Shown: piece by piece, positions 8,262 through 62,978 of the stretch | How the letters are laid out: every line of letters starts with the position of its first letter | Position numbering within the stretch: position 1 is the first letter of the stretch | Assembly (NCBI GenBank): GCA_021827865.1 | Contig: JAKAUC010000009.1 | Coordinates: forward strand, 434,001 to 498,000 | DNA from: an archaeon | GTDB lineage: Archaea; Thermoproteota; Nitrososphaeria; Nitrososphaerales; Gagatemarchaeaceae | Reading direction: 5' to 3' | DNA length: 64,000 nucleotides | Notes under the pieces: generated by a model | Database searches by the model: none | Told to the model about the DNA's origin: nothing | Seen by the model: the letters and a program-made list of their open reading frames with translations, nothing else | Position numbers and translations under genes: made by a program

Positions 8262-8264
8262 CCC

Positions 8265-14903: not shown

Positions 14904-15110
14904 ATGAACAGGAACCTGGTAATCATAGGCGGTATCCTGGCCCTGGTCGGGCTGATCGTCAACGTGGCGGTCGACCTCGACAACGTGTACGACATGACCA
15001 CGACGGCCCTGTGGCTGCTGACGGTCATCGTCGTCTTCGCAGGTGCCTTCCTCGGAGGCAAGAAGAGCGGCTCTGCCGCCCCTAGCGCCCCCGGGGCTGC
15101 GGGCCAGTAG
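14904..15110 (+). CDS. Small two-helix membrane protein
   Basis: A 68-residue protein with two hydrophobic segments (about residues 5-22 and 35-54) and a Ser/Ala/Pro-rich tail. No motif points to a function. ATG 14904 follows a TATA-like TCTAAATATC element by about 30 nt, which supports real, independent transcription. It lies between the YbgC-type thioesterase and the crotonase genes; no functional link is evident. Confidence 0.6.
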   Translation: MNRNLVIIGGILALVGLIVNVAVDLDNVYDMTTTALWLLTVIVVFAGAFLGGKKSGSAAPSAPGAAGQ

Positions 15111-15225
15111 AAGGCCTGCTTCTTCCGTACAAGTTGGCGCGCCAGCACGTGGTGCCGACGTGCCACCCCCGGCATTTTCAGCCGCTTCGCAGGAGTTAAT
15201 ACAAACCGGAGGCGGCCTCGACGGC

Positions 15226-16797: not shown

Positions 16798-16857
16798 ACG
16801 GGTGCCCAAAGGCGCCGGCAAGCAAAGGAGATAAGGCCGCCGCCCGCCTCGTCCCCC

Positions 16858-18054
16858 ATGAAGGACGTAGTAGTCGTCGAGGCGCTGCGCACCCCCGTCG
16901 GCAGGTACGCCGGGGCGCTGAAGTCGGTCAGGCCCGACGACCTTGGAGCGCTGGTCATGAAGCGCGCCCTTGAGAGATCCAGGGTCGAGCCGGCCATGGT
17001 GGACGACGTCTACTTCGGCTGCTCGAACCAGGCCGGGGAGGACAACAGGAACGTGGCCAGGATGGCGACCCTCCTAGCCGGCATCCCGTACTCGGTCCCG
17101 GGGGCGACCGTGAACAGGCTCTGCGGGTCCGGGCTTGAGGCCATCAACAGCGCAGCGAGGGTGATCTCGACTGGGGAGGGCGACATCCTCCTCGCAGGGG
17201 GGGTCGAGAGCATGACGCGCGCACCCCTTGTCGCCCTGAAGCCCGAAGCGGGTTACGAGAGGGGCGGGGTATCCCTGGTCGACACCACCATAGGATGGAG
17301 GTTCGTCAACCCCTCGTTCCCCCAGGACTACCCGCCCCTGTCCATGGGCGAGACGGCGGAGAACCTCGCGGAGAAGCACAAGATTTCCAGGTCGTCCCAG
17401 GACGAGTTCGCCCTCGGCAGCCACAGGAAGGCGGTGGATGCGTCCCAGAGCGGGAGGTTCAGGGAGGAGCTGGTCGCGGTCAGCACGCCGGAAAAGCCGG
17501 AAGGGGTTGTCGATGACGAAGGGCCCAGAAGGGACACGTCCGTCGAGAAGCTCTCGAAGCTCAAGCCCGCCTTCCGCAAGGGAGGGACGGTCACCGCGGG
17601 GAACTCGTCTGGTATCAGCGACGGCGCTTCGGCGCTGGTCCTCATGCGAGAGGGGAAGGCAAGGGACCTTGGCGTGAAGCCCCTGGCGAGGGTCCTCGGC
17701 TCAGCGACGGCAGGGGTCCATCCGAGCTACATGGGTCTGGGGCCGGTGCACTCCACGAGGAAGCTCCTGGCCAGGCTCGGGATGGGGATGGAAGAGTTCG
17801 GCGTCATCGAGCTCAACGAGGCGTTCGCCGCCCAGGTGCTGGCCTGCGCTGCGGAGATGCCGGAACTCGACCTGGGGAGGGTAAATCCGAACGGCGGAGC
17901 CATAGCGCTGGGGCATCCCCTCGGCTGCAGCGGTGCCAGGATAGCCACCACCCTCCTTCATCAGATGCGGCGGACTGGGACCAGGTACGGCCTGGCCACG
18001 ATGTGCATCGGGGTAGGCCAGGGGATATCCACCGCCTTCGAACTCGTGAAGTAA
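16858..18054 (+). CDS. Acetyl-CoA acetyltransferase / 3-ketoacyl-CoA thiolase
   Basis: Cleaves 3-ketoacyl-CoA with CoA. The 398-residue protein has all thiolase residues: VNRLCGSGLEAI (acylated Cys near 90), ELNEAFAAQ, GGAIALGHPLGCSGAR (His) and ATMCIGVGQG (second Cys). It is the bacterial/mitochondrial-like degradative type and not the archaeal Zn-OB-coupled type. Together with the dehydrogenase and crotonase upstream it completes a butyryl/crotonyl-CoA to acetyl-CoA route. An AT-rich AGATAAGG element lies about 26 nt upstream of ATG 16858. Confidence 0.94.
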   Translation: MKDVVVVEALRTPVGRYAGALKSVRPDDLGALVMKRALERSRVEPAMVDDVYFGCSNQAGEDNRNVARMATLLAGIPYSVPGATVNRLCGSGLEAINSAARVISTGEGDILLAGGVESMTRAPLVALKPEAGYERGGVSLVDTTIGWRFVNPSFPQDYPPLSMGETAENLAEKHKISRSSQDEFALGSHRKAVDASQSGRFREELVAVSTPEKPEGVVDDEGPRRDTSVEKLSKLKPAFRKGGTVTAGNSSGISDGASALVLMREGKARDLGVKPLARVLGSATAGVHPSYMGLGPVHSTRKLLARLGMGMEEFGVIELNEAFAAQVLACAAEMPELDLGRVNPNGGAIALGHPLGCSGARIATTLLHQMRRTGTRYGLATMCIGVGQGISTAFELVK

Positions 18055-18122
18055 ACAGATACCACGCAGGGGCGCCTGGGACGGCGCGATACAGGCCTAG
18101 GTGAGGACAAAGGACGTCTAGG

Positions 18123-18665
18123 TCAACCTTTCCTGGGCCTCCAGACCTCTTCCTTCTTCCCTGCCCTCTGGTTCTGCCACCTTGAGAGGTTGAACAGGTA
18201 GGATGAAAGCCGGTTGAAGAACGGCAGCAGTTCGGGGTTCATCTCTTCCGCCTGCGCGGCCGTGACCAGCCTTCTCTCCGCCCGCCTGCACACTGCCCTT
18301 GCCAGCTGGAGCGTCGCCCCGGAAGCGGAACCGCCCGGCAGGATGAAGTTGCGGAGCGGCGGGAGCTTGGCAAGGAGGGAGTCGGTCATCTCTTCCACCC
18401 TCCTGGTATCGGCGGCGGCGATCCTGGGGACAGGTTGGGCAGACGCCAGCTCCGTCGCCGCGTCGCCTCCGGCTATGAAGAGCATGCCCTGGACCTCCGT
18501 CAGGGAGGCGCGCAGCTCCCTCCGCTTCGTCCCCGCCAAGACGACGCCGAGCACTGAGTTCAGCTCGTCTATGGTGCCATAGGCTTCGACCCGTGGGTCG
18601 TCCTTGCGCACCCGCCTGGACCCGTAGAGGGAAGTCTCGCCCCCGTCCCCCCTCCTGGTGTACAT
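18123..18665 (-). CDS. Corrinoid adenosyltransferase, PduO type
   Basis: Transfers adenosyl from ATP to cob(I)alamin to make coenzyme B12. The 180 residues start YTRRGDGGETSLYG (ATP-binding N-terminal motif) and continue with YGTIDELNSVLG, LARAVCRRAERR and NRLSSYLFNLSRW, all PduO-type signatures. It would supply AdoCbl to the two-subunit mutase at 56.5-58.8 kb. ATG 18665. It does not sit with other B12 biosynthesis genes here. Confidence 0.94.
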   Translation of the reverse strand: MYTRRGDGGETSLYGSRRVRKDDPRVEAYGTIDELNSVLGVVLAGTKRRELRASLTEVQGMLFIAGGDAATELASAQPVPRIAAADTRRVEEMTDSLLAKLPPLRNFILPGGSASGATLQLARAVCRRAERRLVTAAQAEEMNPELLPFFNRLSSYLFNLSRWQNQRAGKKEEVWRPRKG

Positions 18666-32764: not shown

Positions 32765-32865
32765 TCGCGGCTCTCGATGCCGCCCCGGCCATCCGGGCTT
32801 AAGGGTTCCAGGCGGCGCCCGTAAAGGTTCAATTAGATTGTTTCCTGATGCGGACCGAGGCGCTG

Positions 32866-34317
32866 ATGGGAGCCAAGAGCGGCAGGGAGTTCCTTCAGAG
32901 GCTCGATTCAACCCCCCGCGAGATCTGGTACGGCGACGAGAAAATCACCGGGTCCGTCTCCCAGCACCCGGCCTTCGGTGGAGTCGCGAAATCGATCGCG
33001 GCCCTCTACGACATGCAGCTGAAGCCCGAGCTGACGGACGTCATGACCTACGAGTCCCCGACGACCCACGATCCAGTCGGGACGAGCTTCCTGCAGCCGC
33101 GCACCAGGGAAGACCTGGCTAAGCGGACGGCCATGATGAAGGCCTGGGCTGACTTTTCTGGAGGGATGATGGGGAGGACCGCGGACTACCTCAACAGCTC
33201 GATCATGGCCATGGCGGCTGCCAAGGAGTTCTTCGGGAAGGGGGAGCGGGACTTCGCCTCTAACGTCTCGAAGTACTACGAGTACGTGCGCGAGAATGAC
33301 CTCATACTGACTCACACGCTGATCAACCCGCAGACCAACAGGGGGGTCGGACCGTCCAAGCAGGCTGACCCATTCATAGCGGCCCGGGTAGCGGACAAGA
33401 CGCCCGATGGGGTAGTGATCAGGGGCGCGAGGATGCTGGCAACGCTCCCGATTGCGGACGAGATCATGGTGTTCCCCTCTACCGTGATTAGGTCGGGGCA
33501 GGACGACGTGCCGTACTCCATCGCCTTCGCGGTCCCCGTGAGCGCCAGGGGGCTGAAGTTCATCTGCAGGGAGTCTTTCTCCGAGGGGGAGTCCACCTTC
33601 GACCACCCCCTGGCCTCGAGGTTTGACGAGCAGGACGCCGTGGTGGTCTTCGACGACGTCGTGGTCCCCTGGGACAGGGTGTTCATACTCGAGGACCCGG
33701 ACAGGGCCAACAGGGTGAACGACGCGACCGGAGCCATCGTCTTCATGGCGCATCAGGCGACGGTGAGGGAGGCGGCCAAGGCGGAGTTCATGGCCGGGCT
33801 GATGACCATGGTCGCTGAGACCATCGGTGCGGACGCCTTCCCCCAGGTGCAGGAGCGGATCACCAACGTCCTCTTGAGCGCGGAGACCATGAAGGCGTTC
33901 CTCAGGTCGAGCGAGGCGGGGGCGAAGACGAACCAATGGGGGCTGATGACCCCGGACTACGCCCCGCTCAACTCCGCGCGGAACATCTGGCCCAGGCTCG
34001 CCCCTGACTTCGCGGCCGTGATCAAACAGACGGGGGCCAGCGGGCTCATGGCCATCCCTCCGGAGGGGATACTGGGATCCGGGGCGAGGCCGGACCTCGA
34101 CAGGTACTTCCAGGCGAAGATGGCGGACGGAGAGGAGAGGGTCCGGCTCTTCAAGATGGCCTGGGACGCTTCTGGGAGCTCATTCGGGGGGAGGCAGGAC
34201 CTCTACGAGAGGTTCTTCTTCGGCGACCCTGTCAGGATGGCGAGCGCCTACTACTCGTGGTACGACAAGGAGCCCTACAAGCAGCGGGTGAAGGAGCTGC
34301 TGCACAGGGGGGACTGA
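32866..34317 (+). CDS. hpaB: 4-hydroxyphenylacetate 3-monooxygenase, oxygenase component
   Basis: FADH2-dependent hydroxylase turning 4-hydroxyphenylacetate (or a similar phenol) into the catechol. 483 residues with the HpaB layout: SGREFLQRLDSTPREIWYGDE, TYESPTTHDPVGTSFL, the flavin-binding middle (TLINPQTNRG, GVVIRGARMLATLPIADE) and a C-terminal helical domain with GILGSG. Only one Cys is present, so the [4Fe-4S] ligands of the related 4-hydroxybutyryl-CoA dehydratase are missing. ATG 32866 preferred over 32848, judged by the AATTAGATT element at about 32830. The ring-cleaving dioxygenase gene follows after 5 nt; a flavin reductase lies just beyond. Confidence 0.9.
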   Translation: MGAKSGREFLQRLDSTPREIWYGDEKITGSVSQHPAFGGVAKSIAALYDMQLKPELTDVMTYESPTTHDPVGTSFLQPRTREDLAKRTAMMKAWADFSGGMMGRTADYLNSSIMAMAAAKEFFGKGERDFASNVSKYYEYVRENDLILTHTLINPQTNRGVGPSKQADPFIAARVADKTPDGVVIRGARMLATLPIADEIMVFPSTVIRSGQDDVPYSIAFAVPVSARGLKFICRESFSEGESTFDHPLASRFDEQDAVVVFDDVVVPWDRVFILEDPDRANRVNDATGAIVFMAHQATVREAAKAEFMAGLMTMVAETIGADAFPQVQERITNVLLSAETMKAFLRSSEAGAKTNQWGLMTPDYAPLNSARNIWPRLAPDFAAVIKQTGASGLMAIPPEGILGSGARPDLDRYFQAKMADGEERVRLFKMAWDASGSSFGGRQDLYERFFFGDPVRMASAYYSWYDKEPYKQRVKELLHRGD

Positions 34318-34322
34318 CGTCC

Positions 34323-35324
34323 TTGGCCGGGGACTTCGAAGTCGTGAAGGCGGGTCACATCGAACTCCTGGTGACTGACCTCGATGCCGCGAAGAGGTTC
34401 TACGTCGACACCCTGGGGCTCGTCGTCACCGAGTCGGATGACGGGCACCTGTACCTCAGAGGGCTCGAAGACAGGCACCACCACTCCATCACCCTGACGA
34501 AATCGGACGCGCCCGGGGTCGACCACTTCGCGTTCAGGGTGGCCGACGAGGCCGGGCTCGACGCGTTGGAGGAGGTCGCACAGAGTAGAGGGTGGTTCTC
34601 CCGCTGGAAGAAGGCGGGTGAGGAGAAGGGAGTCGGGAGGGCGCTCCTGGTCGAGGATGGGTTCGGGTTCCCGGTCGAGTTCTACTCTGAGGCGGAGCCT
34701 CGGGAGTGGCTCCTACAGAAGTTCCAGCACTACAGAGGCGCGAAGGTCATGCGCCTCGACCACTTCAACATCATGCTCCCGGACGTCACGGCGGCGTACG
34801 ATTGGTACGTCAGGGGGCTGGGCTTCGGCTGCACGGAGCTGACGGAGACCGAGGGGGCGAAGCCGGACCTATGGGCAGCCTGGCTGAGGAGGAAACACAC
34901 GTGCCACGACATGGCGCTCACCACCGGAAAGGGGCCGAGGGTCCACCACGCCGGGCTGACGGTCGCGGACAGGGCGTCGATAATGGACGCGGCGGACGTC
35001 CTGGCGGCCAACGGATATGTGAAGAACGTCGAGAGGGGGCCCGGGAGGCACGGCATATCGAACGCGTTCTTCCTGTACCTCAGAGACCCCGACGGAAACC
35101 GGATAGAGCTGTACACCGGGGACTATGTCAGCGCCGACCCCGACTGGGTCCCCATCAGGTGGAAGCTGAACGACCCCCAGAGGCAGACCTTCTGGGGAGC
35201 GCCGACCCCGCAGAGCTGGTTCGACGAAGCGATGGCGGTGCGCTCCCCCAGGACCGGGGAGTTCGCCCAAGTGTCCGGCCCCAAGATCAAAGACAGGCCC
35301 GACTACCTGCTCGGAGCGGTGTAG
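34323..35324 (+). CDS. hpaD: Extradiol dioxygenase, homoprotocatechuate 2,3-dioxygenase type
   Basis: Opens the catechol ring next to the hydroxyls using Fe(II). The 333-residue protein has two vicinal-oxygen-chelate halves; the C-terminal half gives the metal triad His147 (RLDHFNIM), His209 (RVHHAGLT) and Glu262 (RIELYTGDY), in the spacing of the type I extradiol enzymes. The C-terminal extension with TPQSWFDEAMAV is also typical of HPCD-like proteins. TTG start 5 nt after the hpaB stop implies one transcript. It abuts the convergent flavin-reductase gene with no gap. Confidence 0.92.
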   Translation: MAGDFEVVKAGHIELLVTDLDAAKRFYVDTLGLVVTESDDGHLYLRGLEDRHHHSITLTKSDAPGVDHFAFRVADEAGLDALEEVAQSRGWFSRWKKAGEEKGVGRALLVEDGFGFPVEFYSEAEPREWLLQKFQHYRGAKVMRLDHFNIMLPDVTAAYDWYVRGLGFGCTELTETEGAKPDLWAAWLRRKHTCHDMALTTGKGPRVHHAGLTVADRASIMDAADVLAANGYVKNVERGPGRHGISNAFFLYLRDPDGNRIELYTGDYVSADPDWVPIRWKLNDPQRQTFWGAPTPQSWFDEAMAVRSPRTGEFAQVSGPKIKDRPDYLLGAV

Positions 35325-51994: not shown

Positions 51995-52753
51995 ATGGAG
52001 GTCACCTTCGTCACTGGGACAGCGGGGTCAGGGAAGTCCCTCCTCACAGCCGCTCTGAAGACCTGGTATGCCAACAGAGGCGAGGGCGCGATAGCGGTCA
52101 ACCTCGATCCGGGGGTGGTGGAGCTCCCCTACGAGCCCGACGTTGACATCAGGGAGAGGGTCCAGCTTCAGGACGTGATGGAAGACTATGGCCTCGGACC
52201 CAACGGAGCCCTGATCCTGGCAGCGGACCTCACGGCGACCAAGCTCGCCGAGATCCAAGACGAGATCGACTCTTTCAAGACCGAGAACGTGATAGTCGAC
52301 ACGCCCGGACAGACAGAGCTCTTCGCATTCAGGGAGAGCGGGGAGTTCATCGTGCGAGAGATGAGGGCGGACTCGAAGGTCCTCCTCTTCCTGCTTGACC
52401 CTCTCCTGGCGAGCACCCCGTCCAACTTCCTGTCGCTGGCGCTCCTCTCAGCTTCCGTGGGGCTCAGGCTGAGCATCCCCAAGATAACCGTCCTGACGAA
52501 GAGGGACATAGCCAAGGACGGCGTGAAGCGCATCGCCGAGTGGAGCAGGGACGCCAAGACGTTCGAAGACGCCCTGTCGACCACCAAGGACGGCGAGCAG
52601 TATTCCCTCTACTCCGAGCTCTTCAGGAGCATCAGGCGGCTCTCCTTCGGGGCCGACCTCTACCCCGTCTCCTCCATAACCCAGGAGGGGATGATAGCCC
52701 TGGTCGGAGAGATGACGAGGATAGCTCGCGGCGGCGAAGAGTTTACGGACTGA
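51995..52753 (+). CDS. GPN-loop GTPase
   Basis: Archaeal/eukaryotic GPN family, 252 residues: Walker A VTGTAGSGKSLLTAAL, the hallmark YGLGPNGALILA (GPN motif), VDTPGQTELFAF (switch II) and VLTKRDIA (base recognition). Eukaryotic relatives help assemble RNA polymerase II; the archaeal role is not settled. Follows the CinA-like gene after 9 nt and overlaps the convergent hydrolase gene by 11 bp. Confidence 0.93.
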   Translation: MEVTFVTGTAGSGKSLLTAALKTWYANRGEGAIAVNLDPGVVELPYEPDVDIRERVQLQDVMEDYGLGPNGALILAADLTATKLAEIQDEIDSFKTENVIVDTPGQTELFAFRESGEFIVREMRADSKVLLFLLDPLLASTPSNFLSLALLSASVGLRLSIPKITVLTKRDIAKDGVKRIAEWSRDAKTFEDALSTTKDGEQYSLYSELFRSIRRLSFGADLYPVSSITQEGMIALVGEMTRIARGGEEFTD

Positions 52754-53474
52754 GGCCTGAGAGGAAGGACTGCAGGACCTGGGCGAGGGCCCGCGGCTTC
52801 TCCAATGGGAGCATGTGCCCCGACTCCTCGATGACGCGCAGCTCGGAGCCTGGTATGTTCGCGTTGAGGTACTCCGACCACTTGGGTGGGGTCATCCTGT
52901 CCTTGTCCCCGCAGACGATGAGAGTCTTCGCCTCTATCCCTGGCAGCTGGGACCGGACGTCAAAGCCCTGGCACGCCAGGTAGTCGTTGAGGAAGACCGG
53001 GAGGTTGGAGACAGAAAGGGCGGTCCTGGCCTCCCTCCCGAGCCCGAGGTCTATCGAGTTGAAGCTCCAGGGGGTGATCACCTTCTCGATGGTCCCCATG
53101 GGCTGCTCCCTGAGCCCGTCGAGTATCTGCTGGTTGACCCCGAGCTTCGCACCCGTGCTGACCAAGATGAGGGCCCCCAGGTCCTCTGGGTGAGAGACGG
53201 CGAGGTCGAGGGCGATGGCGCCTCCCATCGAATGGCCGCAGACCGCCGGCCTCCTGAGGCCTCGCTCCGCTATGAACCTATGCAGCGCCTCGGCATAGTC
53301 ATCCACGCTCTTGCAGGTTATGTCCCCAGAGGGGTGGCCAGGCAGGTTGACCGCGTAGCCGTGGGCGCCCCCGGACAGGTACTGCAGCGTCCTCCTCCAG
53401 AGGAGGCTGTTCCCTCCGGCCCCGTGGACGAACACCGTATCGTGGGGAGCCTCGTGCGTGTCCGACTCGAGCAA
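52743..53474 (-). CDS. Alpha/beta hydrolase
   Basis: A 243-residue hydrolase with the nucleophile elbow VCGHSMGGAIALDLA, an oxyanion-region FVHGAGGNSLLW, acid VCGDKDRMTPP and catalytic His ESGHMLPLEKP. It is of the general carboxylesterase/meta-cleavage hydrolase style; substrate not evident. TTG 53474 sits about 26 nt after a minus-strand TATA-like GTTAAATCG shared with the divergent methylisocitrate lyase gene. Confidence 0.87.
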   Translation of the reverse strand: MLESDTHEAPHDTVFVHGAGGNSLLWRRTLQYLSGGAHGYAVNLPGHPSGDITCKSVDDYAEALHRFIAERGLRRPAVCGHSMGGAIALDLAVSHPEDLGALILVSTGAKLGVNQQILDGLREQPMGTIEKVITPWSFNSIDLGLGREARTALSVSNLPVFLNDYLACQGFDVRSQLPGIEAKTLIVCGDKDRMTPPKWSEYLNANIPGSELRVIEESGHMLPLEKPRALAQVLQSFLSGLSP

Positions 53475-53509
53475 CCTGGGTTACGGCGCCCGGGCTCGAT
53501 TTAACGCTG

Positions 53510-54451
53510 ATGGGGGAAACTCTAAAGGGGGTCGGCCCGGCGCAGGAGGAAGAGCTGGACTTGCCATCGCAGGCCGACGTGCTGAGGAAGCTTGTCAAAG
53601 GGGAGAAGGTGGTCGTGGCCCCCGGAGTGTTCAGCCCCTCGGTCGCGAAGCTGGCTGAGAGGGAAGGGTTCAGGGCCATCTATTTTTCAGGGGCGGGGTT
53701 CTCGAATCTGCTTGCGCTCCCCGACCTCGGGATCACCACGCTCAGCGAGGTGGCGCAGGCGGCGCGGCAGATCACTTCCAGGGTGGCGGTCCCGCTGATA
53801 GTCGACGCCGACACGGGCTTCGGCGAGGCGCTGAACGTCGCCAGGACGGTCGACGAGATGAAGGCAGCCGGGGCGGCCGCCGTCCAAATAGAGGACCAGG
53901 TCCTTCCGAAGCGCTGCGGGCACCTGGAGGGGAAGGAGCTCGTGGAGGTAGACGAGATGGTCAAGAAGCTTGTCTCGGCCAAGGAGGCGGCGGGGAGGAA
54001 GCTGATGATAATCGCCAGGACTGACGCCAGGGCGGTGGAGGGGATGGACGGCGCCCTTGAGAGGGCGGCCGCCTATGCGAGGGCGGGGGCGGATATGATA
54101 TTCCCAGAGGCCCTCGAAGGGAGAGAAGAGTTCGCAGAGATGAGGAAGAAGGTCAGGCTCCCCCTGATGGCGAACATGACTGAGTTCGGGAAGACACCAT
54201 ACATGACGGCGGAGGAGTTTGAGGCCCTGGGGTACAACCTGGTGATATTCCCCGTGACTGCGTTCAGGGCGATGATGAAGACGGTGAAGGACACATTCTC
54301 GGCGCTGAAGAGCGAGGGGACGCAGAAGGGGATCCTCGGCTCCCTCATGACCAGGAAAGAGTTCTACGGCCTCATCGACTATGAAAAGTTCGAAGAGGCT
54401 GATGAGAAGGCGATGAAGGCGGCCAAGCGCCTGAGGAGGGGCAGGAGTTGA
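53510..54451 (+). CDS. prpB: 2-Methylisocitrate lyase (PEP mutase/isocitrate lyase family)
   Basis: Cleaves 2-methylisocitrate to pyruvate and succinate in the methylcitrate cycle. The 313 residues have VVVAPGVFSPSVAKLAE, YFSGAGFSNLLALPDLG, VDADTGFGEALNVART (Mg-binding Asp) and EDQVLPKRCGHLEGKELV (KRCGH active-site motif), all as in PrpB. The gene overlaps the synthase start by 4 bp. Carboxyvinyl-phosphonate mutase is the other close relative but the prpC neighbour supports PrpB. Confidence 0.92.
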   Translation: MGETLKGVGPAQEEELDLPSQADVLRKLVKGEKVVVAPGVFSPSVAKLAEREGFRAIYFSGAGFSNLLALPDLGITTLSEVAQAARQITSRVAVPLIVDADTGFGEALNVARTVDEMKAAGAAAVQIEDQVLPKRCGHLEGKELVEVDEMVKKLVSAKEAAGRKLMIIARTDARAVEGMDGALERAAAYARAGADMIFPEALEGREEFAEMRKKVRLPLMANMTEFGKTPYMTAEEFEALGYNLVIFPVTAFRAMMKTVKDTFSALKSEGTQKGILGSLMTRKEFYGLIDYEKFEEADEKAMKAAKRLRRGRS

Positions 54452-55566
54452 CGGAGCCCTTGGAGGCCGTCAAGGTCCCGAGGGGGCTGGCCGGTGTCTC
54501 AGTCGCTGACACGCGGATTTCCAAGAGCAGCGCGGACGGGTCCCTGGTGTACCGCGGCTACCCCATCGCAGACCTGGCGGCCAACGCCAGCTTCGAGGAG
54601 ACGGCGTACCTGGTGCTCAACGGGAAGCTACCGACGAGGGGGGAGCTGGACTCCTTCGCTTCGGGGATCGCGCGGAGGTCGAGCTTGGACCGCAGGGTCT
54701 TCGATATCATGGGGGCACTGGGGGGAGGCGCCCATCCGATAGACGCAATCAGGACGGGGGTGTCCGCCCTCGGGAGCATCGACGCCGAGCAGTCGATCCA
54801 GGATAAGGAGGCTTCCATCGAGTCGAAGATGCCGGTGCTGGCCGCGAACTGCCTCAGGGTCCCGAAGGGGGAGCCGCCGAGGCTTCCCGGAAAGACGGGG
54901 GGGTTCGCCGACAGGCTCCTCCAGATGCTCACTCCGAGGGAGGCGAGCGAATTCGACCGGTGGGTGTTCGAGCGGGTGCTGATATTCTACATGGAGCACG
55001 ACATGAACGCGTCCTCCTTCACCGTGCGGGTCGTGGCGTCCACGCTGGCAGACCCCTACGCGGCCGCTTCGGCGGGGCTGGCCTCCCTGAAGGGGCCCCT
55101 GCACGGAGGGGCCAACGAGGCTGCGATGGAGATGCTCCTGCGGGCCAAGGATCCTGAGAACGCCGGCCCCTTCGTCGAGGCCACATTCAGGGAGGGGAGG
55201 AAGCTCATGGGGTTCGGCCACAGGGTCTACAAGCAGTTCGACCCCAGGGCAAGGCTATGCAAGGAGTACCTGGGGGAGATGACCAAGAAGCGCGGAGACG
55301 ACAGGATCTACAGGCTCTGCGACGCCATCGAGAGGGAGATGTGGGAGAAGAAGAAGATTCCGCCGAACCTGGACTACTACGCCGCCCCCATCTTCTACCT
55401 CCTCGGCATCGAGGTCCCCCTTTACACCCCGATCTTCGCCGCGAGCAGGGTCTTCGGGTGGATGGCCCACTACAACGAGCAGGTGGAGGAGAACAAGCTG
55501 ATTCGTCCCGACTCCACCTACGTCGGCCATGCGGGTCGCAGCTACGTCCCCATCGAGAAGCGATGA
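54448..55566 (+). CDS. prpC: 2-Methylcitrate synthase / citrate synthase
   Basis: Condenses propionyl-CoA (or acetyl-CoA) with oxaloacetate. The 372 residues contain AVKVPRGLAGVSVADT, SLVYRGYPIADLA, GPLHGGANEAAMEML (catalytic His), GFGHRVYKQFDPRARL (second His) and LDYYAAPIFYLLGI (Asp), a short citrate-synthase form. The TTG start overlaps prpB, so a prpB-prpC operon is likely and the methylcitrate role is favoured over plain citrate synthase. Both activities may coexist. Confidence 0.92.
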   Translation: MTEPLEAVKVPRGLAGVSVADTRISKSSADGSLVYRGYPIADLAANASFEETAYLVLNGKLPTRGELDSFASGIARRSSLDRRVFDIMGALGGGAHPIDAIRTGVSALGSIDAEQSIQDKEASIESKMPVLAANCLRVPKGEPPRLPGKTGGFADRLLQMLTPREASEFDRWVFERVLIFYMEHDMNASSFTVRVVASTLADPYAAASAGLASLKGPLHGGANEAAMEMLLRAKDPENAGPFVEATFREGRKLMGFGHRVYKQFDPRARLCKEYLGEMTKKRGDDRIYRLCDAIEREMWEKKKIPPNLDYYAAPIFYLLGIEVPLYTPIFAASRVFGWMAHYNEQVEENKLIRPDSTYVGHAGRSYVPIEKR

Positions 55567-55567
55567 G

Positions 55568-56446
55568 CTAGCGGCCCAGTCGCCTGGCAGCCTCTTCGAC
55601 GCTCATCCTTCCATCCACCACCTGCTGCGCCAGGGCTTCCGCCTTCGACTCTGACACTGCTGCGAACCTCGCCATGGCCGCCCCCCTCGCAGTCTCCACA
55701 ATCATCCCCCTGACGCTGCGCAGCCTGAGTCCACGGTCCCCCGAAGAGAACTTCGTCCGCGCCTCGTCTATGGCCTTACGCAGGTTCTCTATCCCCTCCC
55801 CGGAGAGCGCCGAGACCTTCAGCACAGGGGGCGAGCGACGGCTCCCCCGGAACAGGGATAGCATGCTGACCACCATGGCGTCGGCGCCGTCAAGGTCGGC
55901 CTTGTTCACCACATATACGTCCCCCACCTCCATCAGCCCTGCCTTCGACACCTGGACGTCGTCCCCCAGCCCCGGCATCATGACAACGAGGACTGAATGC
56001 GATACCCCCACGACCTCGATGTCCGACTGGCCTATGCCCACGGTCTCGAGCAGTATCACATCGAACCCCGCGGCGTCCATCAGCCTGATGGCCTGCGAAG
56101 TCGCCCTTGACAGGCCCCCGGTCCATCCCCTGGACGCCATGCTTCTGATGTACACGCCTCGGTCGCCTGTGTGCCTCGTCATGCGAATCCTGTCCCCCAG
56201 CAGGGCGCCACCTGTGAGAGGGCTGCTCGGATCCACGGCGACCACCCCCACCCTCAGCCCCAGTTCTCGGTAGGAGTCGATCAGCCTGTCGACGAGGGTG
56301 CTCTTGCCCGTCCCCGGCGGGCCCGTGACCCCGACGACGAACGCCCTCCCAGGGGCGCCGAGCTTCTCCAGGAGGCCCGAGGCGCGTTCCGGGTCGTTCT
56401 CCGCGAGGGTGATCGCCCTGGCGAGGGCTGACCTGTCGCCTTTCAA
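55568..56446 (-). CDS. meaB: MeaB/ArgK-type GTPase chaperone of a B12 mutase
   Basis: G3E-family GTPase of 292 residues that protects and reloads adenosylcobalamin mutases: Walker A VVGVTGPPGTGKSTLVDRL, VVAVDPSSPLTGGALLGDRIRM, MASRGWTGGLSRAT, LLETVGIGQSDIEV and VVNKADLDGADA (GTP base motif NKAD). The C-terminal dimerisation arm is present. TTG start at 56446, divergent from the mutase large subunit, which is its likely client. Confidence 0.93.
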   Translation of the reverse strand: MKGDRSALARAITLAENDPERASGLLEKLGAPGRAFVVGVTGPPGTGKSTLVDRLIDSYRELGLRVGVVAVDPSSPLTGGALLGDRIRMTRHTGDRGVYIRSMASRGWTGGLSRATSQAIRLMDAAGFDVILLETVGIGQSDIEVVGVSHSVLVVMMPGLGDDVQVSKAGLMEVGDVYVVNKADLDGADAMVVSMLSLFRGSRRSPPVLKVSALSGEGIENLRKAIDEARTKFSSGDRGLRLRSVRGMIVETARGAAMARFAAVSESKAEALAQQVVDGRMSVEEAARRLGR

Positions 56447-56559
56447 AATGGCGGATGTCAGTCGAGTCTGAGATGCCGTGGCCGCCTCCGTCGCCCGGGT
56501 CTCTTTTATCGGTTCGAAGAGATTCTTTATCTTCCGGGGCGTCCGCCGGTGCCAAGGAC

Positions 56560-58317
56560 ATGCTCAGGGACGCAGGGGATGCCTACTGGCGGAAGAAGGC
56601 GAAGTCTGTCGTCGAGAGGAGGGCGAAGAAGGGGACGCTGTATGAAAGGAAGGCGGTCGAGAGGGCAAGAGAGGGGCTCAGGCAGTGGCAGGACACTTTG
56701 TACGCGGAGTGGGCGGAGAAGTCCCCGGGAGCGGGGAGGGACCCGCAGACGGCGTCAGGGATACCGCTGAAGCCGCTCTACACCCCGGATGACGTAGCGA
56801 ACTCGGAGTACTCCGACCAGGGTTTCCCTGGAGTGTACCCGTTCCTGAGGGGGGTCTACCCGAACATGTACAGAGGCCGGACCTGGACCATGAGGATGTT
56901 CTCAGGGTTCGGCACCCCCGAGGACACCAACAAGAGGCTGAAGCTGCTTCTCGATCACGGAGAGACGGGGCTGAGCATAGCGTTCGACATGCCCACCCTC
57001 TACGGATATGATTGCGACTCCGAGCGAGCCCACGGCGAGGTGGGGAGGTGCGGCGTGAACGTCTCTTCGCTCAAGGACATGGAGGTCATCTTCGACGGCA
57101 TCCCTCTGGGGGAGGTGAGCACGTCGATGACCATCAACGCTCCGGCGACCGTCCTTACCTGCATGTACGCTGGCGTGGGGAAGAGGCAGGGGGTGCCCGC
57201 CTCCCAGCTCAGGGGGACGGTGCAGGCGGACATGCTCAAGGAGTACATCGCCCAGAAGGAGTGGGCCTACCCACCCGAGGCGCACCTGAGGCTCGTCAGG
57301 GACCTCATGGTGTTCGCGACCAAGGAGATGCCCCTCTGGAATTACATCAGCATCAGCGGGTACCACATCAGGGAAGCGGGGTCCAGCGCGGTACAGGAGC
57401 TGGCATTCACCCTCGCCGATGGATTCGGCTACATAGAGCTCGGCTTGGAAGCGGGCCTGAAGGTGGAGCAGTTCGCCCCTCGCCTCAGCTTCTTCTTCAA
57501 CTCGACCATGGACTTCTTCGAGGAGATCGCAAAGTTCAGGGCGGCCAGGAGGGTCTGGGCGACTGTGCTCCGCGAGAAGTACGGAGTGACGGACAAGAGG
57601 AGCCTGCTGATGCGGTTCCACACCCAGACTTCGGGGGCGTCCCTCACCTGGCAGCAGCCATTGAACAACGTGGTGAGGACCGCCATCGAGGCCCTGGCGG
57701 CGGTCCTTGGGGGGACCCAGTCGCTGCACACCAACTCATACGACGAGGCCTGGGCCCTTCCTACGGAGCAGGCCGTGGAGGTGGCACTGAGGACCCAACA
57801 GATCATAGCGGAGGAGACCGGCCTGCCCAGCGTGATAGACCCCCTCGGAGGGTCGTACTACGTGGAGTGGCTCACGGAGCAGATGGAGGAGGAGGCGTAC
57901 AAATACTTCGACAGGATTGAGGCGGCAGGGGGGCTGCTGAAGGCGGTGAAGACTGGATACCTCCAGCGGGAGATAGCGGAGAACTCCTACAGGCTCTCGA
58001 AACGTGTCGAGCAGGGGAAGGACTCCGTTGTCGGCGTGAACAAGTACTCGAAGCCCGAGAAGGAGCCCATTGACACACTGAAGATCGACTTCAAGGCCCA
58101 GAGGGCGCAGACCAGGCGGCTGGCCGCCGTGAAGCGGGAGAGGGACGAGGCGAAGGTCAGGGCCGCGCTGGCGAAAATGGAGAAGGCATTTGAAAACGAA
58201 GATGCAAACTCCATGTACCCGATGCTGGACGCCGTGACGAAGTACGCGACACTGGGCGAAGTGATGGGGGTCGGGCGCAGGGTCTGGGGCTCATACAAGG
58301 AGCCCATGCTGCTCTAG
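56560..58317 (+). CDS. Adenosylcobalamin acyl-CoA mutase, large subunit; residues fit isobutyryl-CoA mutase
   Basis: TIM-barrel catalytic subunit of 585 residues (no B12 domain), the layout of IcmA and archaeal MCM alpha. It aligns without gaps to P. shermanii methylmalonyl-CoA mutase: VPYxxx-type region, SISGYH with the catalytic His (269), SQTSGASLTWQQP, HTNSYDEA and IDPLGGSYYVE are conserved. But the two substrate-carboxylate residues differ: Tyr89 is Phe114 (RMFSGF) and Arg207 is Gln232 (KEYIAQK). Phe/Gln is the isobutyryl-CoA mutase pattern (2-hydroxyisobutyryl-CoA mutase has Ile/Gln). So methylmalonyl-CoA is an unlikely substrate. ATG 56560 chosen because GATTCTTTATC lies about 33 nt upstream; the frame opens at 56455. 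B12-binding subunit follows. Confidence 0.9.
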   Translation: MLRDAGDAYWRKKAKSVVERRAKKGTLYERKAVERAREGLRQWQDTLYAEWAEKSPGAGRDPQTASGIPLKPLYTPDDVANSEYSDQGFPGVYPFLRGVYPNMYRGRTWTMRMFSGFGTPEDTNKRLKLLLDHGETGLSIAFDMPTLYGYDCDSERAHGEVGRCGVNVSSLKDMEVIFDGIPLGEVSTSMTINAPATVLTCMYAGVGKRQGVPASQLRGTVQADMLKEYIAQKEWAYPPEAHLRLVRDLMVFATKEMPLWNYISISGYHIREAGSSAVQELAFTLADGFGYIELGLEAGLKVEQFAPRLSFFFNSTMDFFEEIAKFRAARRVWATVLREKYGVTDKRSLLMRFHTQTSGASLTWQQPLNNVVRTAIEALAAVLGGTQSLHTNSYDEAWALPTEQAVEVALRTQQIIAEETGLPSVIDPLGGSYYVEWLTEQMEEEAYKYFDRIEAAGGLLKAVKTGYLQREIAENSYRLSKRVEQGKDSVVGVNKYSKPEKEPIDTLKIDFKAQRAQTRRLAAVKRERDEAKVRAALAKMEKAFENEDANSMYPMLDAVTKYATLGEVMGVGRRVWGSYKEPMLL

Positions 58318-58383
58318 GCTCCAGCCAAGTGCACAAGCCGCGGCAAAAGGTTTTGAAGGCCCCGGGGGCTCGAGCGAAGAAGA

Positions 58384-58815
58384 TTGGCAAGGAAGGCGAC
58401 GGCGCTCCAGAGGAAGATCAGGATACTCGTCGCGAAGCCCGGGCTCGACGGCCACGACAGGGGGGCCCTCGTTCTCGCCAGGGCATTCAGGGACGCAGGG
58501 ATGGAGGTGATCTACAGCGGCCTGCTCCCTTCCCCCGAGCAGGTCGCGCAGATGGCCATAGACGAAGACGTTGACGTGGTGGCCCTGTCCCTTCTCAACG
58601 GGGCCCATATGACGGCGTTCCCGAAGGTGAAGAAGCTCCTGGACAAGCTGGGAGGGAAGGATGTGGTGGTGGTCGGGGGCGGGATAATCCCCGAGGAGGA
58701 CAAGCCGAGGCTGCTGAAGCTAGGGATAACCGGCTTATACGGCCCGGGGAGCTCTTTCGAGGACATCGTGGAACACGTCCGAGGCCGGGTCAGGAAAGAG
58801 AGGTGGAAGGAGTAG
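58384..58815 (+). CDS. B12-binding small subunit of the acyl-CoA mutase
   Basis: Cobalamin-binding partner of 143 residues: RILVAKPGLDGHDRGALVL (D22-x-H24-x-x-G27, His ligating cobalt), then ALSLLNGAHMTAFPKV (Ser contact) and VVVGGGIIPEED. Together with the large subunit it forms the active mutase, like IcmB. TTG start; 66 bp after the large subunit gene. The acyl-CoA dehydrogenase gene begins directly at its stop, so the three probably share a transcript. Confidence 0.94.
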   Translation: MARKATALQRKIRILVAKPGLDGHDRGALVLARAFRDAGMEVIYSGLLPSPEQVAQMAIDEDVDVVALSLLNGAHMTAFPKVKKLLDKLGGKDVVVVGGGIIPEEDKPRLLKLGITGLYGPGSSFEDIVEHVRGRVRKERWKE

Positions 58816-60036
58816 ATGCCCAAACAGGACGAGTTCATGAACCTCTCGAAGATGAACTTCGACGTCTCCGAAGAGCAGGAGATGATCCTCGAGCAGGTGG
58901 ACAGGGCTTGCAAGGAGTTCAGGCCCATCGAGGACAGGTACTACCTCGAGCACAAGATCAACGACCAGACCAGACCGTTCTTCGCGAAGGCGCACCTCCT
59001 GGGGCTCCCGGTCTCAAGGAGGTACGGAGACGGCCAGGGGGCAGACATGGTCACCTATGCCCTGGCCATCGAGAGGATAGGGAGGGAGGGGACCGGGGTG
59101 AGGACGTTCTTTTCGGTGCATATGGCTCTCGGACAGATGACGGTCCAGCACTGGGGGAACGAAGAGCAGAAGAACCGGATACTCACCCCCGCCACGAAGG
59201 GGGACGCCATACTCGCGTTCGGGCTCACCGAGCCCAATGCCGGGAGCGACCCCGCTTCCCTCACAACCTACTTCGAGGAGAAGGGGGGGAAGTACCAGAT
59301 AACCGGCCAGAAGATGTGGATATCCCTGGGCTCGTCTTCGAAATACGTCCTGGTCTTCGCGTACCCCAAGGGCAGGAGGGAGGGGATGAGCGGGTTCATT
59401 GTCGATACGGAGAGCCCCGGGTTCAAGGCTGAGCTCATCCCGCACAAGCTCGGCCTCCCGACGGCCGACACGTCCACCCTCTACCTGGACAAGGTCGAGG
59501 TGACCAAGGAGGATGTGCTCGGGCCGCCGGGGAAGGGCATGTCCGTCGCGCTCTCAGGGCTGATGAATGGGAGGCTGAGCGTGGCCGCCGGGTGCGTCGG
59601 CGTCATCCAGGACTGCCTGGACGAGGCCGTGAGCTACGCCGGGGTGAGGGTCCAGCACGGCAAGGTGATCGGCAAGCACCAGCTTGTCCAGAGGCACATA
59701 GGGCTGATGGCCACGAACCTGGAGGCGGCCAGGCTGCTCCTACTCCAGGCCGCGTTCGTCAAGCAGAAGTATGAAGAGAACCCAGGCAACACGGAGCTCA
59801 GGGACGCCACCGACCTGGCCTGCGCCCGCGCGAAGTACTTCGCGGCCAACGCTTCCTTCGACGCCGCCAACAGGGCGGTCCAGATCTTCGGCGGGAACGG
59901 CTACTCGCTGGAGAACAGGCCCGCCAGGCACTTCGCGGACACCAGGGTCACCATGATATACGAAGGGGCCAACGAGATCATGGAGCAGAAGCTCGCCCTG
60001 GGCGCACTGGGGAAAGGATTCGAAGCGTACTCCTAG
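58816..60036 (+). CDS. Acyl-CoA dehydrogenase (short-chain type)
   Basis: FAD enzyme making the trans-2-enoyl-CoA; 406 residues. N-terminal helices (SEEQEMILEQVDRACKEF), FGLTEPNAGSDPASLTT (FAD/substrate), YQITGQKMWISLGSS, then C-terminal AVQIFGGNGYSLENRPAR and TMIYEGANEIMEQ, whose Glu is the catalytic base in butyryl/isobutyryl-type enzymes. It is translated right behind the mutase small subunit. If the mutase makes butyryl-CoA from isobutyryl-CoA, this would yield crotonyl-CoA for the crotonase at 15.2 kb. Substrate is inferred from context. Confidence 0.93.
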   Translation: MPKQDEFMNLSKMNFDVSEEQEMILEQVDRACKEFRPIEDRYYLEHKINDQTRPFFAKAHLLGLPVSRRYGDGQGADMVTYALAIERIGREGTGVRTFFSVHMALGQMTVQHWGNEEQKNRILTPATKGDAILAFGLTEPNAGSDPASLTTYFEEKGGKYQITGQKMWISLGSSSKYVLVFAYPKGRREGMSGFIVDTESPGFKAELIPHKLGLPTADTSTLYLDKVEVTKEDVLGPPGKGMSVALSGLMNGRLSVAAGCVGVIQDCLDEAVSYAGVRVQHGKVIGKHQLVQRHIGLMATNLEAARLLLLQAAFVKQKYEENPGNTELRDATDLACARAKYFAANASFDAANRAVQIFGGNGYSLENRPARHFADTRVTMIYEGANEIMEQKLALGALGKGFEAYS

Positions 60037-60159
60037 AACCCCGTCGGTGCATTCCTAGGAGGAAGGGGCGGGCAAAGCCCGCTCTTCTCGCAGTTCGGAT
60101 CCGGCCGCGGCACTCGCCGGCGGGAAGCTGTGGGCATTGAGTACGCCAGGATATGATGG

Positions 60160-60894
60160 TCAGTGCGAGAAGGCCAGGGCCATGAGGAATGCGGCCGTGG
60201 AGATCACGGCAAGCACTATCCCCTTGAGGATGCCCTCGAGCTTTGCGGCCAGGGGAGACCCACCCCCCTGCTCCTGCTTGATCGCCTTGTAGGGCCTCGA
60301 GGCGCTGATTTCGACGTAGGCGGTGAAGAAGCCGAAAAGCCCGGCGGCGACTGACGCGACGCTCACTGTGTCCGCCTGGACCACGAAGCCGGCGATCACA
60401 GGGAGGAACCCCCAGGAAGTCGCGAACCACAGGTCCGTGTGGAACGCCCCGCCGAATAGCTCGAGGTTGTAGGCGAGCAGGAAGAAGAGCTCGACGGCCC
60501 CCACCATGAGGAGCAGAGGAGCATAGGTCAGCGCCAGATAGAGGCCAAGCCCCAGGGACGGGACCAGCGCGGCCGCAGCCACGGCCGCGAGCTGCCTTCG
60601 CGAAAAGAAGTTCCCCCACGGCCTGTTGGGGGCCATGGCGTCGAGACAATGGGCCGAGACGCCGACGGCGAGGAGATACACCACTGCCAGCGCCGCCATC
60701 CTCTCGACGTGGACCATCGGGGCTATGAGCGACCCGATGAGGACATAGCTGGCGTTCATGAGCGAGTATGGATAGAAGCTGAGCCCCACCAGAAGCCTTA
60801 GGCGCCTGGGCCCCCTCCGTGGGACATACCACTCCCTCAGCCGCGTGCCTTCGCTGTCGGCCTGGCCCAAGGGCCTCAAGCGGCATCCCCGCAC
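60160..60894 (-). CDS. UbiA-like polytopic membrane protein lacking the prenyltransferase motifs
   Basis: About 244 residues with 7-8 hydrophobic helices. Overall shape and the loops recall UbiA prenyltransferases, but the catalytic N-D-x-x-D-x-x-x-D is absent: the corresponding loop reads SAHCLDAMAPNRPWGNFFSRRQL, and the second Asp-rich motif is replaced by NLELFGGAFHTDLWF. It may be a degenerate or divergent member with a different role. Start uncertain (GTG 60894, or ATG 60951); a TATA-like CTCTTATCC lies at about 60930. It is divergent from a UbiE-like methyltransferase gene, 68 bp apart. Confidence 0.6.
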   Translation of the reverse strand: MRGCRLRPLGQADSEGTRLREWYVPRRGPRRLRLLVGLSFYPYSLMNASYVLIGSLIAPMVHVERMAALAVVYLLAVGVSAHCLDAMAPNRPWGNFFSRRQLAAVAAAALVPSLGLGLYLALTYAPLLLMVGAVELFFLLAYNLELFGGAFHTDLWFATSWGFLPVIAGFVVQADTVSVASVAAGLFGFFTAYVEISASRPYKAIKQEQGGGSPLAAKLEGILKGIVLAVISTAAFLMALAFSH

Positions 60895-60962
60895 TATTGA
60901 CCGTTTCCCGGGTCGGCGCGTTCCAGAGGGGATAAGAGACGGCGGGCGCATGGCTTCTCCGA

Positions 60963-61679
60963 ATGGGAGACGCGGTAGCGCCGGCCGAAGAGATGAAGCG
61001 GACGTCGTCGAAGATATTCGCCGGGCTGGCGCGGTCCTACGAGAACGCCCTGGATTACGCCACCCTGTTCCAAGACAGGCGCTGGAAGGCCTGGGTCGCG
61101 AGAAGGCTGAACGTGGAGGGCGGCCTCGTCCTTGACGTGGGGAGCGGGACCTTGGTCCTCGAGGAGCTCCTCTCAGGGATGGGCTGCAGGTTCGTCGGCC
61201 TCGACCTTGCCCCTGAGATGATACGCGTCGCCATGGAGAAGAGGGTCCCCGGCGTCGGCCTGGTCCTTAACGGAGACGCCGAGTTTCTCCCGTTCGCCGA
61301 TGGCTCTTTCGACTCCGTCGTCAGCTGCTATGTCCCGAAATACGTCGACGTCCGGAAGTTCGTGAGGGAGCTGGCGAGGGTGGCCAAGCCAGGGGGGAAG
61401 GCCGTGGTGTACGACTTCGCCAAGCCGAGGGGACCCCTCGCCCCCTTCCTTGAGGCGTACATCCAGGGCGGGCTGCGCGTGATTGGCTTCGCCCTCGGGC
61501 TTGCGGGGAGGAGGGAGGCGTATACCTTCGACAGGCTCCCCCAGATCATCGAAGGCACAACCTGGGACCTGGAAATGGTCGACGCCATGGAATCGAACGG
61601 GTTCGTTGAAATCGAGTCCGCCCGGCTCACGGGAGGGGTGGTCTTCGCCTGCAGCGGGCGGCTCAGGGAGAGCGCTTAG
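60963..61679 (+). CDS. SAM-dependent methyltransferase (UbiE/Methyltransf_11-like)
   Basis: A 238-residue methyltransferase: GLVLDVGSGTLVLEELL (motif I), FVGLDLAPEMIRVAME, LVLNGDAEFLPFADGSFDSVVSCY (motif II/III), and ARVAKPGGKAVVYDFAKP. The layout is UbiE/COQ5-like, and its divergent neighbour is UbiA-like, so a lipid or quinone substrate is conceivable. ATG 60963 or internal ATG 60993. Confidence 0.84.
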   Translation: MGDAVAPAEEMKRTSSKIFAGLARSYENALDYATLFQDRRWKAWVARRLNVEGGLVLDVGSGTLVLEELLSGMGCRFVGLDLAPEMIRVAMEKRVPGVGLVLNGDAEFLPFADGSFDSVVSCYVPKYVDVRKFVRELARVAKPGGKAVVYDFAKPRGPLAPFLEAYIQGGLRVIGFALGLAGRREAYTFDRLPQIIEGTTWDLEMVDAMESNGFVEIESARLTGGVVFACSGRLRESA

Positions 61680-61787
61680 ATACTGTGGGATAGGGTTGTT
61701 GCACATGTCCCGGGCGACCAGAGGTAGGGCGGGGGCGGTCAGGACGGCGCGCAGAACCCCCAAGCGGGAGCGCCCGGCTCCTTCGAA

Positions 61788-62978
61788 TTGAGCGGCGGAG
61801 GGCCGCAGGGGGGCGGACCCCTGCCGATCTACTTCGCCAAGGGAGGGAGGGTGTTCGTGTCGGGGCTCCTCAGCATCGCCCTCCCCTTCTACCTGAGGGC
61901 CATCGGCTACGGTCCCTTCTTCCAAGGGCTTGCCCTGGTGGCCATCCTTGCGGGGAACGCAGCTTCGAACCTAGCTGTGACATACCTCGGCGCCAGGGTG
62001 GGCAGGAAGAGGCTGCTGCAGATATTCAGCCTCCTAATGGTCGCGGCGGGTGCAGTCCTGGCGCTGGACGAGGCCGCCGCCGCAATACTCCTGGCATGCC
62101 TGGCGGGAAACATCAGCAGCACGGGGACGGAGGCGGGACCGTTCCAGTCCATCGAAGCCGGGATCCTCCCCGACCTGAGCGGAGAGGGGTCGAGCGTCAG
62201 AGCCTTCGGGAGGTACAACATGATAGGCTACTCGGCGGCCGCCCTTGGACAGCTCGCTTCTTCGGGCCCAGGCATCCTCGGGAACAGCGCGGTTGCGTTC
62301 CACGTTGTGTTCGCCGGGTTCGCAGTCGTGGGGGTGGTCCTCTTCGCTGTCTACAGCAGGCTGAAGGGCATGGAAGGGAGCCGCGCAGCGAGGCCAGGCC
62401 TGGCTAACCTCAGCCAGGCGGCGAGGAAGGACCTCGTGCGGCTCTCGGGGCTGTTCTCCGTGGACTCGCTCGGCGGGGTCTTCGTCACGACATACCTCCT
62501 ATCGATCTGGTTCAGCTCGACCTTCGGCCTCCAGCTCGAGTACCTCGGGCCCATATTCTTCGTCGCTAGCTTGGTCACCGCGGCCTCGACCTACGGGGCG
62601 GCCATGATCGCCCTGCGAATCGGCAACCTGAGAACCATGGTCTACACCCACCTCGCGTCGAATGGGTTCCTCATCCTCATGGGGCTCGCTGGGTCCCTCC
62701 CGCTCGCGCTCCTCTTCCTCTTCCTCCGCCAGAGCGTGTCGCAGATGGACGTCCCGACGAGGCAGGCGCTGATGACAGAGATGTTCCAGAAGGAGGAGAG
62801 GGTCCAGGCCTACGCGGTCACCAACACCCTGCGGAGCGCTGGTTCGTTCGTGGGCGGCCCAGCCTCGGCGGTGATGCTCGGGCTTGGGTTGGTGTCGGCG
62901 CTCCCGTTCGCGGGTGGGGTCACCAAGATCGGCTATGACCTTCTGACCTTCGCCAGCTACAGGAAGAGATACCGCTAG
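61788..62978 (+). CDS. MFS transporter
   Basis: A 396-residue permease with about 11-12 helices. TYLGARVGRKRLLQIFSLLM is the motif A position. GTEAGPFQSIEAGILPDLSG and SVSQMDVPTRQALMTEMFQKEERV are conserved-looking loops seen in a group of archaeal/bacterial MFS proteins of unknown substrate. TTG start at 61788. About 110 bp after the methyltransferase gene; not clearly linked. Confidence 0.83.
   Translation: MSGGGPQGGGPLPIYFAKGGRVFVSGLLSIALPFYLRAIGYGPFFQGLALVAILAGNAASNLAVTYLGARVGRKRLLQIFSLLMVAAGAVLALDEAAAAILLACLAGNISSTGTEAGPFQSIEAGILPDLSGEGSSVRAFGRYNMIGYSAAALGQLASSGPGILGNSAVAFHVVFAGFAVVGVVLFAVYSRLKGMEGSRAARPGLANLSQAARKDLVRLSGLFSVDSLGGVFVTTYLLSIWFSSTFGLQLEYLGPIFFVASLVTAASTYGAAMIALRIGNLRTMVYTHLASNGFLILMGLAGSLPLALLFLFLRQSVSQMDVPTRQALMTEMFQKEERVQAYAVTNTLRSAGSFVGGPASAVMLGLGLVSALPFAGGVTKIGYDLLTFASYRKRYR

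Follow-up and report, generated by a model that had tools for sequence, protein, structure and literature searches.

AdoCbl-dependent acyl-CoA mutases form a family whose radical mechanism is well established, as is the role of a tyrosine/arginine pair in substrate binding. In methylmalonyl-CoA mutase (MCM), this pair (Tyr89 and Arg207) holds the second carboxylate of methylmalonyl-CoA. Isobutyryl-CoA mutase (ICM) of Streptomyces cinnamonensis is composed of two subunits, IcmA and IcmB, similar in size to those described below, and the two specificity sites of IcmA carry Phe and Gln. In IcmF (PDB IDs: 4xc6 and 5cjt-5cjw), mutase and G-protein domain are fused into one chain. 2-hydroxyisobutyryl-CoA mutase (HCM; HcmA/HcmB, PDB ID: 4r3u) is again a two-subunit enzyme, whose specificity is set by Ile and Asp; in RcmA, Val occupies the site of this Asp.

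Residues at these sites are already used to name enzymes: a passage of PMC7238569 refers to Jost et al. 2015 for the two specificity sites, and another calls a Rhodospirillum enzyme MCM from its Tyr-92/Arg-210. ICM is described as known from bacteria only in a section of PMC2847961 (2010). An "isobutyryl-CoA mutase subunit B" is named in the archaeon Cuniculiplasma in a part of PMC7285479, so the annotation already exists in archaea. Among titles and opening lines of abstracts, a scope outside which most subscription papers fall, we found neither a report of an assayed archaeal ICM nor a description of a B12-shunt valine route in archaea.

Here we describe a mutase encoded in a stretch of 64,000 nucleotides (the window, meaning the whole stretch analysed) from an uncultured relative of soil Thaumarchaeota, a member of Gagatemarchaeaceae (group I.1c Thaumarchaeota). 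We propose that it belongs, among AdoCbl-dependent acyl-CoA mutases, to the isobutyryl-CoA mutase type, a reading to which its sequence and those of its relatives lend a probability of about 0.7.

The mutase subunits and their specificity residues

The features of the locus are listed in the table. Large and B12-binding subunits are encoded separately, as in the IcmA/IcmB layout and as the first-pass annotation had stated. The MutL/MutS pair has the features of the superfamily: both domains (PF01642 and PF02310), the catalytic histidine and the DxHxxG motif, present in MutS as GLDGHDRGA. At the position of the mutL start, M or L is found in all 51 family rows, and a YW/FW motif conserved directly after it speaks for this start rather than an upstream ATG at 56455; judging from the mixture of M and L, initiation at TTG is possible.

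Table. Features of the mutase locus and the adenosyltransferase gene, in window coordinates
Feature	Position	Strand	Basis
Cob(I)alamin adenosyltransferase	18123..18665	-	TIGR00636, 184 bits (cut-off 108.45)
PrpB, 2-methylisocitrate lyase	53510..54451	+	TIGR02317, 398.6 bits (cut-off 354.4)
PrpC-like 2-methylcitrate/citrate synthase	54448..55566	+	TIGR01800, 388.5 bits (under cut-off 421.3)
meaB, MeaB-type G-protein chaperone, divergent from mutL	55568..56446	-	TIGR00750, 301 bits (cut-off 240.75)
mutL, acyl-CoA mutase large subunit (MutL/IcmA-like), 585 aa	56560..58317	+	PF01642, 722 bits
Phe114 codon (MCM Tyr89 site)	56899..56901	+	HMMER alignment and residue reading
Ala141 codon (Asp in HCM)	56980..56982	+	Residue reading
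Gln232 codon (MCM Arg207 site)	57253..57255	+	HMMER alignment and residue reading
His269 codon (MCM His244 site)	57364..57366	+	Residue reading
mutS, B12-binding small subunit (MutS/IcmB-like), 143 aa	58384..58815	+	TIGR00640, 161.9 bits (cut-off 57.45); PF02310
Acyl-CoA dehydrogenase	58816..60036	+	Pfam ACAD domains

The first-pass annotation had read Phe114, Gln232 and His269 from a gap-free alignment to MCM of P. shermanii, and renewed reading gives the same residues at the same codons. In the HMMER alignment to 1req no gap falls between the two sites, which are 118 residues apart in both proteins. His269 corresponds to His244, the catalytic histidine of MCM. Together with Ala141, the window enzyme thus reads F114/Q232/A141/H269, where MCM has Tyr/Arg/Ala and HCM (4r3u) Ile/Gln/Asp at the three specificity positions. 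The residues at the Tyr89 and Arg207 sites are those of ICM; neither the Tyr and Arg of MCM nor the Ile and Asp of HcmA at sites 114 and 141 are found by residue reading. Phe by itself does not exclude methylmalonyl-CoA, since the Y89F variant of MCM has been solved with substrate (title of 5req), and Gln232 therefore weighs more than Phe114.

A structure model of MutL (mean pLDDT 78.1, pTM 0.85, with residues in 98-110, just before F114, partly below pLDDT 50) matches the folds of HCM, MCM and IcmF alike and does not discriminate between the types. HCM 4r3u is the closest solved structure both by fold and by sequence (45% identity); nearest to MutS are 2yxb and the HCM small subunit, 4r3u_C.

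Distribution of the signatures and placement of the enzyme

Mutases with Phe and Gln at the two sites (F/Q) occur in 36 of the 61 genomes of the order, the window's included, and mutases with Tyr and Arg (Y/R) in 18, seven genomes having both; 29 genomes thus hold F/Q only, 11 Y/R only, three fragments only, and 11 no mutase. Each locus was read individually. F/Q/A/H is kept at all 36 F/Q loci, of which the window is one and a few are cut by contig ends, and Y/R/A/H at all 18 Y/R loci, so the signature is not a product of chance. Identity to the window enzyme is 64-100% for 35 of the 36 F/Q mutases; the remaining one, in G054, is 52% identical and groups with a bacterial enzyme.

A wider set of relatives was collected by scanning contigs with two patterns. 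One pattern itself requires F or I at site 114, so the share of F/Q among the hits says nothing about frequency; the best 80 of at least 590 relatives include Thaumarchaeota archaeon TA_8, palsa_1368 and AcS1-27. A first alignment of 145 rows (141 mutase rows, the window and three references, some rows being copies of one genome) contained 119 F/Q/A/H, 21 Y/R/A/H, three I/Q/D/H, one V/Q/D/H and one F/X/A/H, whose X comes from a run of N. After addition of loci and removal of copies, the alignment comprised 146 rows: 112 F/Q/A/H, 28 Y/R/A/H, four I/Q/D/H, one V/Q/D/H and one I/G/V/D; rows at least 99% identical to the window, with aligned length below 430 or with more than 10 X were left out, as were copies. 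No row in either alignment mixes the F/Q/A with the Y/R/A triplet. As a positive control, three IcmF orthologues were read among those exceeding the curated IcmF cut-off, which is passed in 72 of the 148 genomes from a single bacterial phylum, and all three are F/Q/A/H.

The mutase of a Streptomyces plasmid (L134) is of Y/R type. The HCM-like mutase of a Sinorhizobium plasmid (L135, 4560-6683) reads V/Q/D where HCM has I/Q/D, and its gene neighbours encode an enoyl-CoA hydratase and an AMP-binding protein. A Paraburkholderia plasmid (L160, 3446-5137) encodes a mutase-like protein whose three sites read I/G/V and which, in one alignment, lacks the catalytic His; next to it are genes for a B12 subunit, for MeaB and for two acyl-CoA dehydrogenases. 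In L033 (genome G051, 4750-11400) and in L061 (5362-9752), Y/R and F/Q large subunits are encoded a few kb apart; meaB, prpB, prpC and one small subunit are found between or beside the two in L033, and this single small subunit may serve both.

For the main tree (IQ-TREE), the 146 rows were thinned to 91, with the I/G/V row dropped, and then to 66, and the three signature columns were removed. A single branch, supported at 99/98 and recovered in 98% of 200 bootstrap trees, sets the Y/R enzymes apart from the F/Q enzymes and HCM. Thirteen archaeal F/Q rows, the window enzyme among them, form a clade (100/100). Its records come from several families of Thaumarchaeota, with one from Bathyarchaeota, one from Crenarchaeota and two from Thermoplasmatota; we know of no characterised enzyme in this clade. 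Placement among MCMs of proven activity would have refuted the first-pass annotation; compared with the human and P. shermanii enzymes, the window enzyme falls on the other side of the branch (99/98), and the annotation is not refuted.

That the enzyme is a 2-hydroxyisobutyryl-CoA mutase of HcmAB or RcmAB type is highly unlikely. HCM shares with it the two-subunit build and Gln at site 232, is its closest solved structure and branches within the F/Q side of the tree. Against this, the window enzyme carries Phe instead of Ile and Ala instead of Asp, a clade of their own (100/100) unites HCM and its relatives (I/Q/D and V/Q/D), and the gene neighbours differ: the acyl-CoA ligase and GntR regulator of two HCM-type plasmid loci are not among the genes annotated at 51995-62978.

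IcmF shares F/Q/A/H and the fold family with the window enzyme at about 32% identity, but differs in its fused chain and is very distant in the tree. When three IcmF rows were added, with their signature residues retained while the 66 earlier rows lacked theirs (a small flaw), IcmF joined outside the F/Q set on a very long branch (3.45); a single branch then no longer separated the Y/R set, which needed two changes. The F/Q state may consequently be old or convergent. IcmA/IcmB, compared by description only, is a bacterial system, whereas the archaeal genes described here are linked to meaB, an acyl-CoA dehydrogenase (ACAD) and prpBC.

Gene neighbourhood and the probable fate of propionyl-CoA

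Neighbours, recognised by their resemblance to genes of the window and to six epimerases, were counted within 6 kb at loci of at least 9 kb; the loci are not independent, and two family rows (L052 and L153) come, to judge from its length, from one contig. Among 21 loci of the window's family, MutS lies near 20 mutases, ACAD near 19, MeaB near 18, PrpC near 18 and PrpB near 14. The neighbourhood is thus well conserved, and we infer that the module prpB-prpC, meaB, mutL-mutS-ACAD, presumably co-transcribed, is largely preserved in Gagatemarchaeaceae. Exceptions are an F/Q mutase without prpBC and meaB alongside (G032) and two loci without ACAD near the mutase (L055 and L146). Outside the family, one locus (L058) holds mutase, prpBC, thiolase and crotonases inside 18 kb. 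An ACAD, 3-hydroxyacyl-CoA dehydrogenase, enoyl-CoA hydratase or thiolase is found near 35 of 69 other F/Q loci versus one of 22 Y/R loci. An epimerase lies near 16 of 22 Y/R loci, near two of the 69 other F/Q loci (L118 and L131, epimerase-like) and near none of the 21 family loci.

In the window, the first base of the ACAD gene directly follows the mutS stop codon. Among solved structures, the dehydrogenase is nearer to butyryl-CoA dehydrogenase (1buc, E 5.3e-54) than to ACAD family member 8 (1rx0, E 8.1e-37), the isobutyryl-CoA dehydrogenase. The best solved match of the PrpC-like protein is 2-methylcitrate synthase 3tqg, with citrate synthases close behind. The adenosyltransferase, 38 kb from the mutase module, is the sole PF01923 match of the window's genome and a possible source of AdoCbl, which other enzymes may also use.

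At 13527-18665, a cluster encoding a 3-hydroxyacyl-CoA dehydrogenase, a thioesterase, two crotonases and a thiolase adjoins the adenosyltransferase gene, which is on the other strand; its enzymes are similar to those of the lower phenylacetate pathway. This cluster was at first taken as a partner in butyryl-CoA oxidation and then set aside: by NCBIfam one crotonase is nearest PaaG and the thiolase nearest 3-oxoadipyl-CoA thiolase (PaaJ), so it is not specific support for that role. Elsewhere in the window (32848-35324), the gene of an HpaB-family 4-hydroxyphenylacetate hydroxylase adjoins a dioxygenase-like gene of the glyoxalase fold, which points to possible aromatic catabolism.

Methylmalonyl-CoA epimerase (TIGR03081) exceeds its cut-off in 16 of the 61 genomes. 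All 16 belong to the 18 with a Y/R mutase (the exceptions being G041 and G051), compared with none of the 43 others, i.e. the 29 with F/Q only, three with fragments and 11 without mutase (Fisher p 7.5e-13, kinship ignored; the genomes are related and not independent). The two-subunit Y/R mutases of the order are of the same family as the window enzyme (48-55% identity), differing from it in residues, epimerase and side of the tree; they probably include the MCM of ammonia oxidisers. Four genomes of the window's own family (G003, G016, G027 and G032) hold, besides an F/Q mutase, a separate Y/R mutase adjoining an epimerase, with a carboxyltransferase next to the epimerase in three (of these genes, one contains an internal stop and another is cut) and 3 kb off in the fourth.

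The window's genome comprises 1.94 Mb in 20 contigs, with a completeness of 99.24% and a contamination of 7.47%. No PF01642 gene besides mutL was found in it, and no epimerase exceeds the cut-off (best 46.2 bits of 114.95). A PrpD-family gene is present. This family (PF03972, which also covers enzymes other than PrpD) occurs in 25 of 29 F/Q-only, five of seven both-type and two of 11 Y/R-only genomes. This distribution and the lack of epimerase in genomes with F/Q only suggest that propionyl-CoA probably has another exit. The genome also carries two full carboxyltransferase genes (PF01039; contig C2, 14064-15518, and contig C4, 6799-8256), one of which may be foreign given the contamination.

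An ordinary methylmalonyl-CoA mutase with unusual residues is accordingly very improbable. MutL does exceed the cut-off of the MCM family model TIGR00641, and the Y89F structure and the two carboxyltransferases would agree with such an enzyme. Set against these are Gln232 in place of Arg, the position opposite the Y/R side, the lack of an epimerase over the cut-off, the adjoining methylcitrate-cycle genes and the Y/R paralogues with their own epimerase in the four related genomes. Residues, tree, epimerase co-occurrence and the status of mutL as sole mutase in a genome with methylcitrate-cycle genes together indicate that the window mutase is very probably not an MCM.

Proposed function and its meaning for the family

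In the mechanism we propose, the MutL TIM barrel would bind the CoA ester and MutS would bring the cofactor, which MeaB would help to load onto the mutase. Homolysis of the Co-C bond would yield the 5'-deoxyadenosyl radical, and this radical would initiate a 1,2-shift of the CoA-carbonyl group. With Phe114 and Gln232 in place of the Tyr/Arg pair, a non-carboxylated acyl chain would fit the pocket.

Isobutyryl-CoA and butyryl-CoA are the likeliest substrate pair. The first-pass annotation had proposed this pair or a similar one; its reading of the enzyme as something other than an MCM is well supported, and the pair itself is a best guess, with IcmF outside the F/Q set and a clade lacking a characterised enzyme. 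An F/Q mutase acting mainly on another non-carboxylated branched acyl-CoA, be it 2-methylbutyryl-/valeryl-CoA from isoleucine or isovaleryl-/pivalyl-CoA, is an unlikely alternative that deserves more weight than those above: IcmF has been solved with isobutyryl-, n-butyryl-, isovaleryl- and pivalyl-CoA (titles of 5cjt-5cjw), so an F/Q pocket can accommodate several esters. Isoleucine breakdown makes propionyl-CoA, which would fit the prpBC neighbours.

For the isobutyryl-/butyryl-CoA pair, valine-derived isobutyryl-CoA would be converted by the mutase to n-butyryl-CoA, which the adjoining ACAD and beta-oxidation would carry on to acetyl-CoA, and propionyl-CoA would pass to the neighbouring PrpC and PrpB. 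The closer similarity of the ACAD to butyryl-CoA dehydrogenase than to ACAD8 fits, without proving, a sequence from isobutyryl-CoA through butyryl-CoA to crotonyl-CoA. An E1 dehydrogenase gene (730-aa frame) is present in the window's genome. Methylmalonate-semialdehyde dehydrogenase does not exceed its cut-off there (249.9 of 448.5 bits), and HIBADH has no match at 1e-40. The former exceeds the cut-off in seven of 61 genomes, six of them among the 37 of the window's family, some members of which may therefore have the ordinary valine route. HIBADH is a weak marker, with 19 of 61 genomes matching at 1e-40 and none over the cut-off. ECH_2 (PF16113) was dropped as a marker of HIBCH: most listed matches cover about half of the model, as do ordinary enoyl-CoA hydratases. 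Genes for branched-chain amino acid degradation and beta-oxidation in Gagatemarchaeaceae are reported in a passage of PMC10640624, in whose main text methylmalonyl, mutase and methylcitrate do not occur. Names of the AcS type, as in the relative AcS1-27, also appear in that paper, which suggests that the window's family is Gagatemarchaeaceae.

We tentatively suggest, as a possibility still somewhat doubtful, that members of this thaumarchaeal family use a B12 shunt to oxidise branched-chain amino acids, in which isobutyryl-CoA is turned into butyryl-CoA and beta-oxidised, with propionyl-CoA entering the methylcitrate cycle. With such a combination, both methylmalonate-semialdehyde dehydrogenase and MCM would be dispensable.

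Mutases of the Phe/Gln type are widespread, and their misannotation as MCM, anticipated by the first-pass annotation, is real and already known: three F/Q plasmid relatives are labelled "methylmalonyl-CoA mutase family protein", and a part of PMC7764203 describes IcmF as widely misannotated in the same way. An MCM annotation would credit these archaea with a methylmalonyl-CoA route for which the remaining genes of the genome give no support. Residue pair and epimerase co-occurrence separate two mutase types within one archaeal order, and the window mutase is a candidate archaeal ICM directly testable in vitro. If true, the B12 shunt would give a proven archaeal ICM and a valine route that, among the titles and abstract openings covered, is described for no archaeon.
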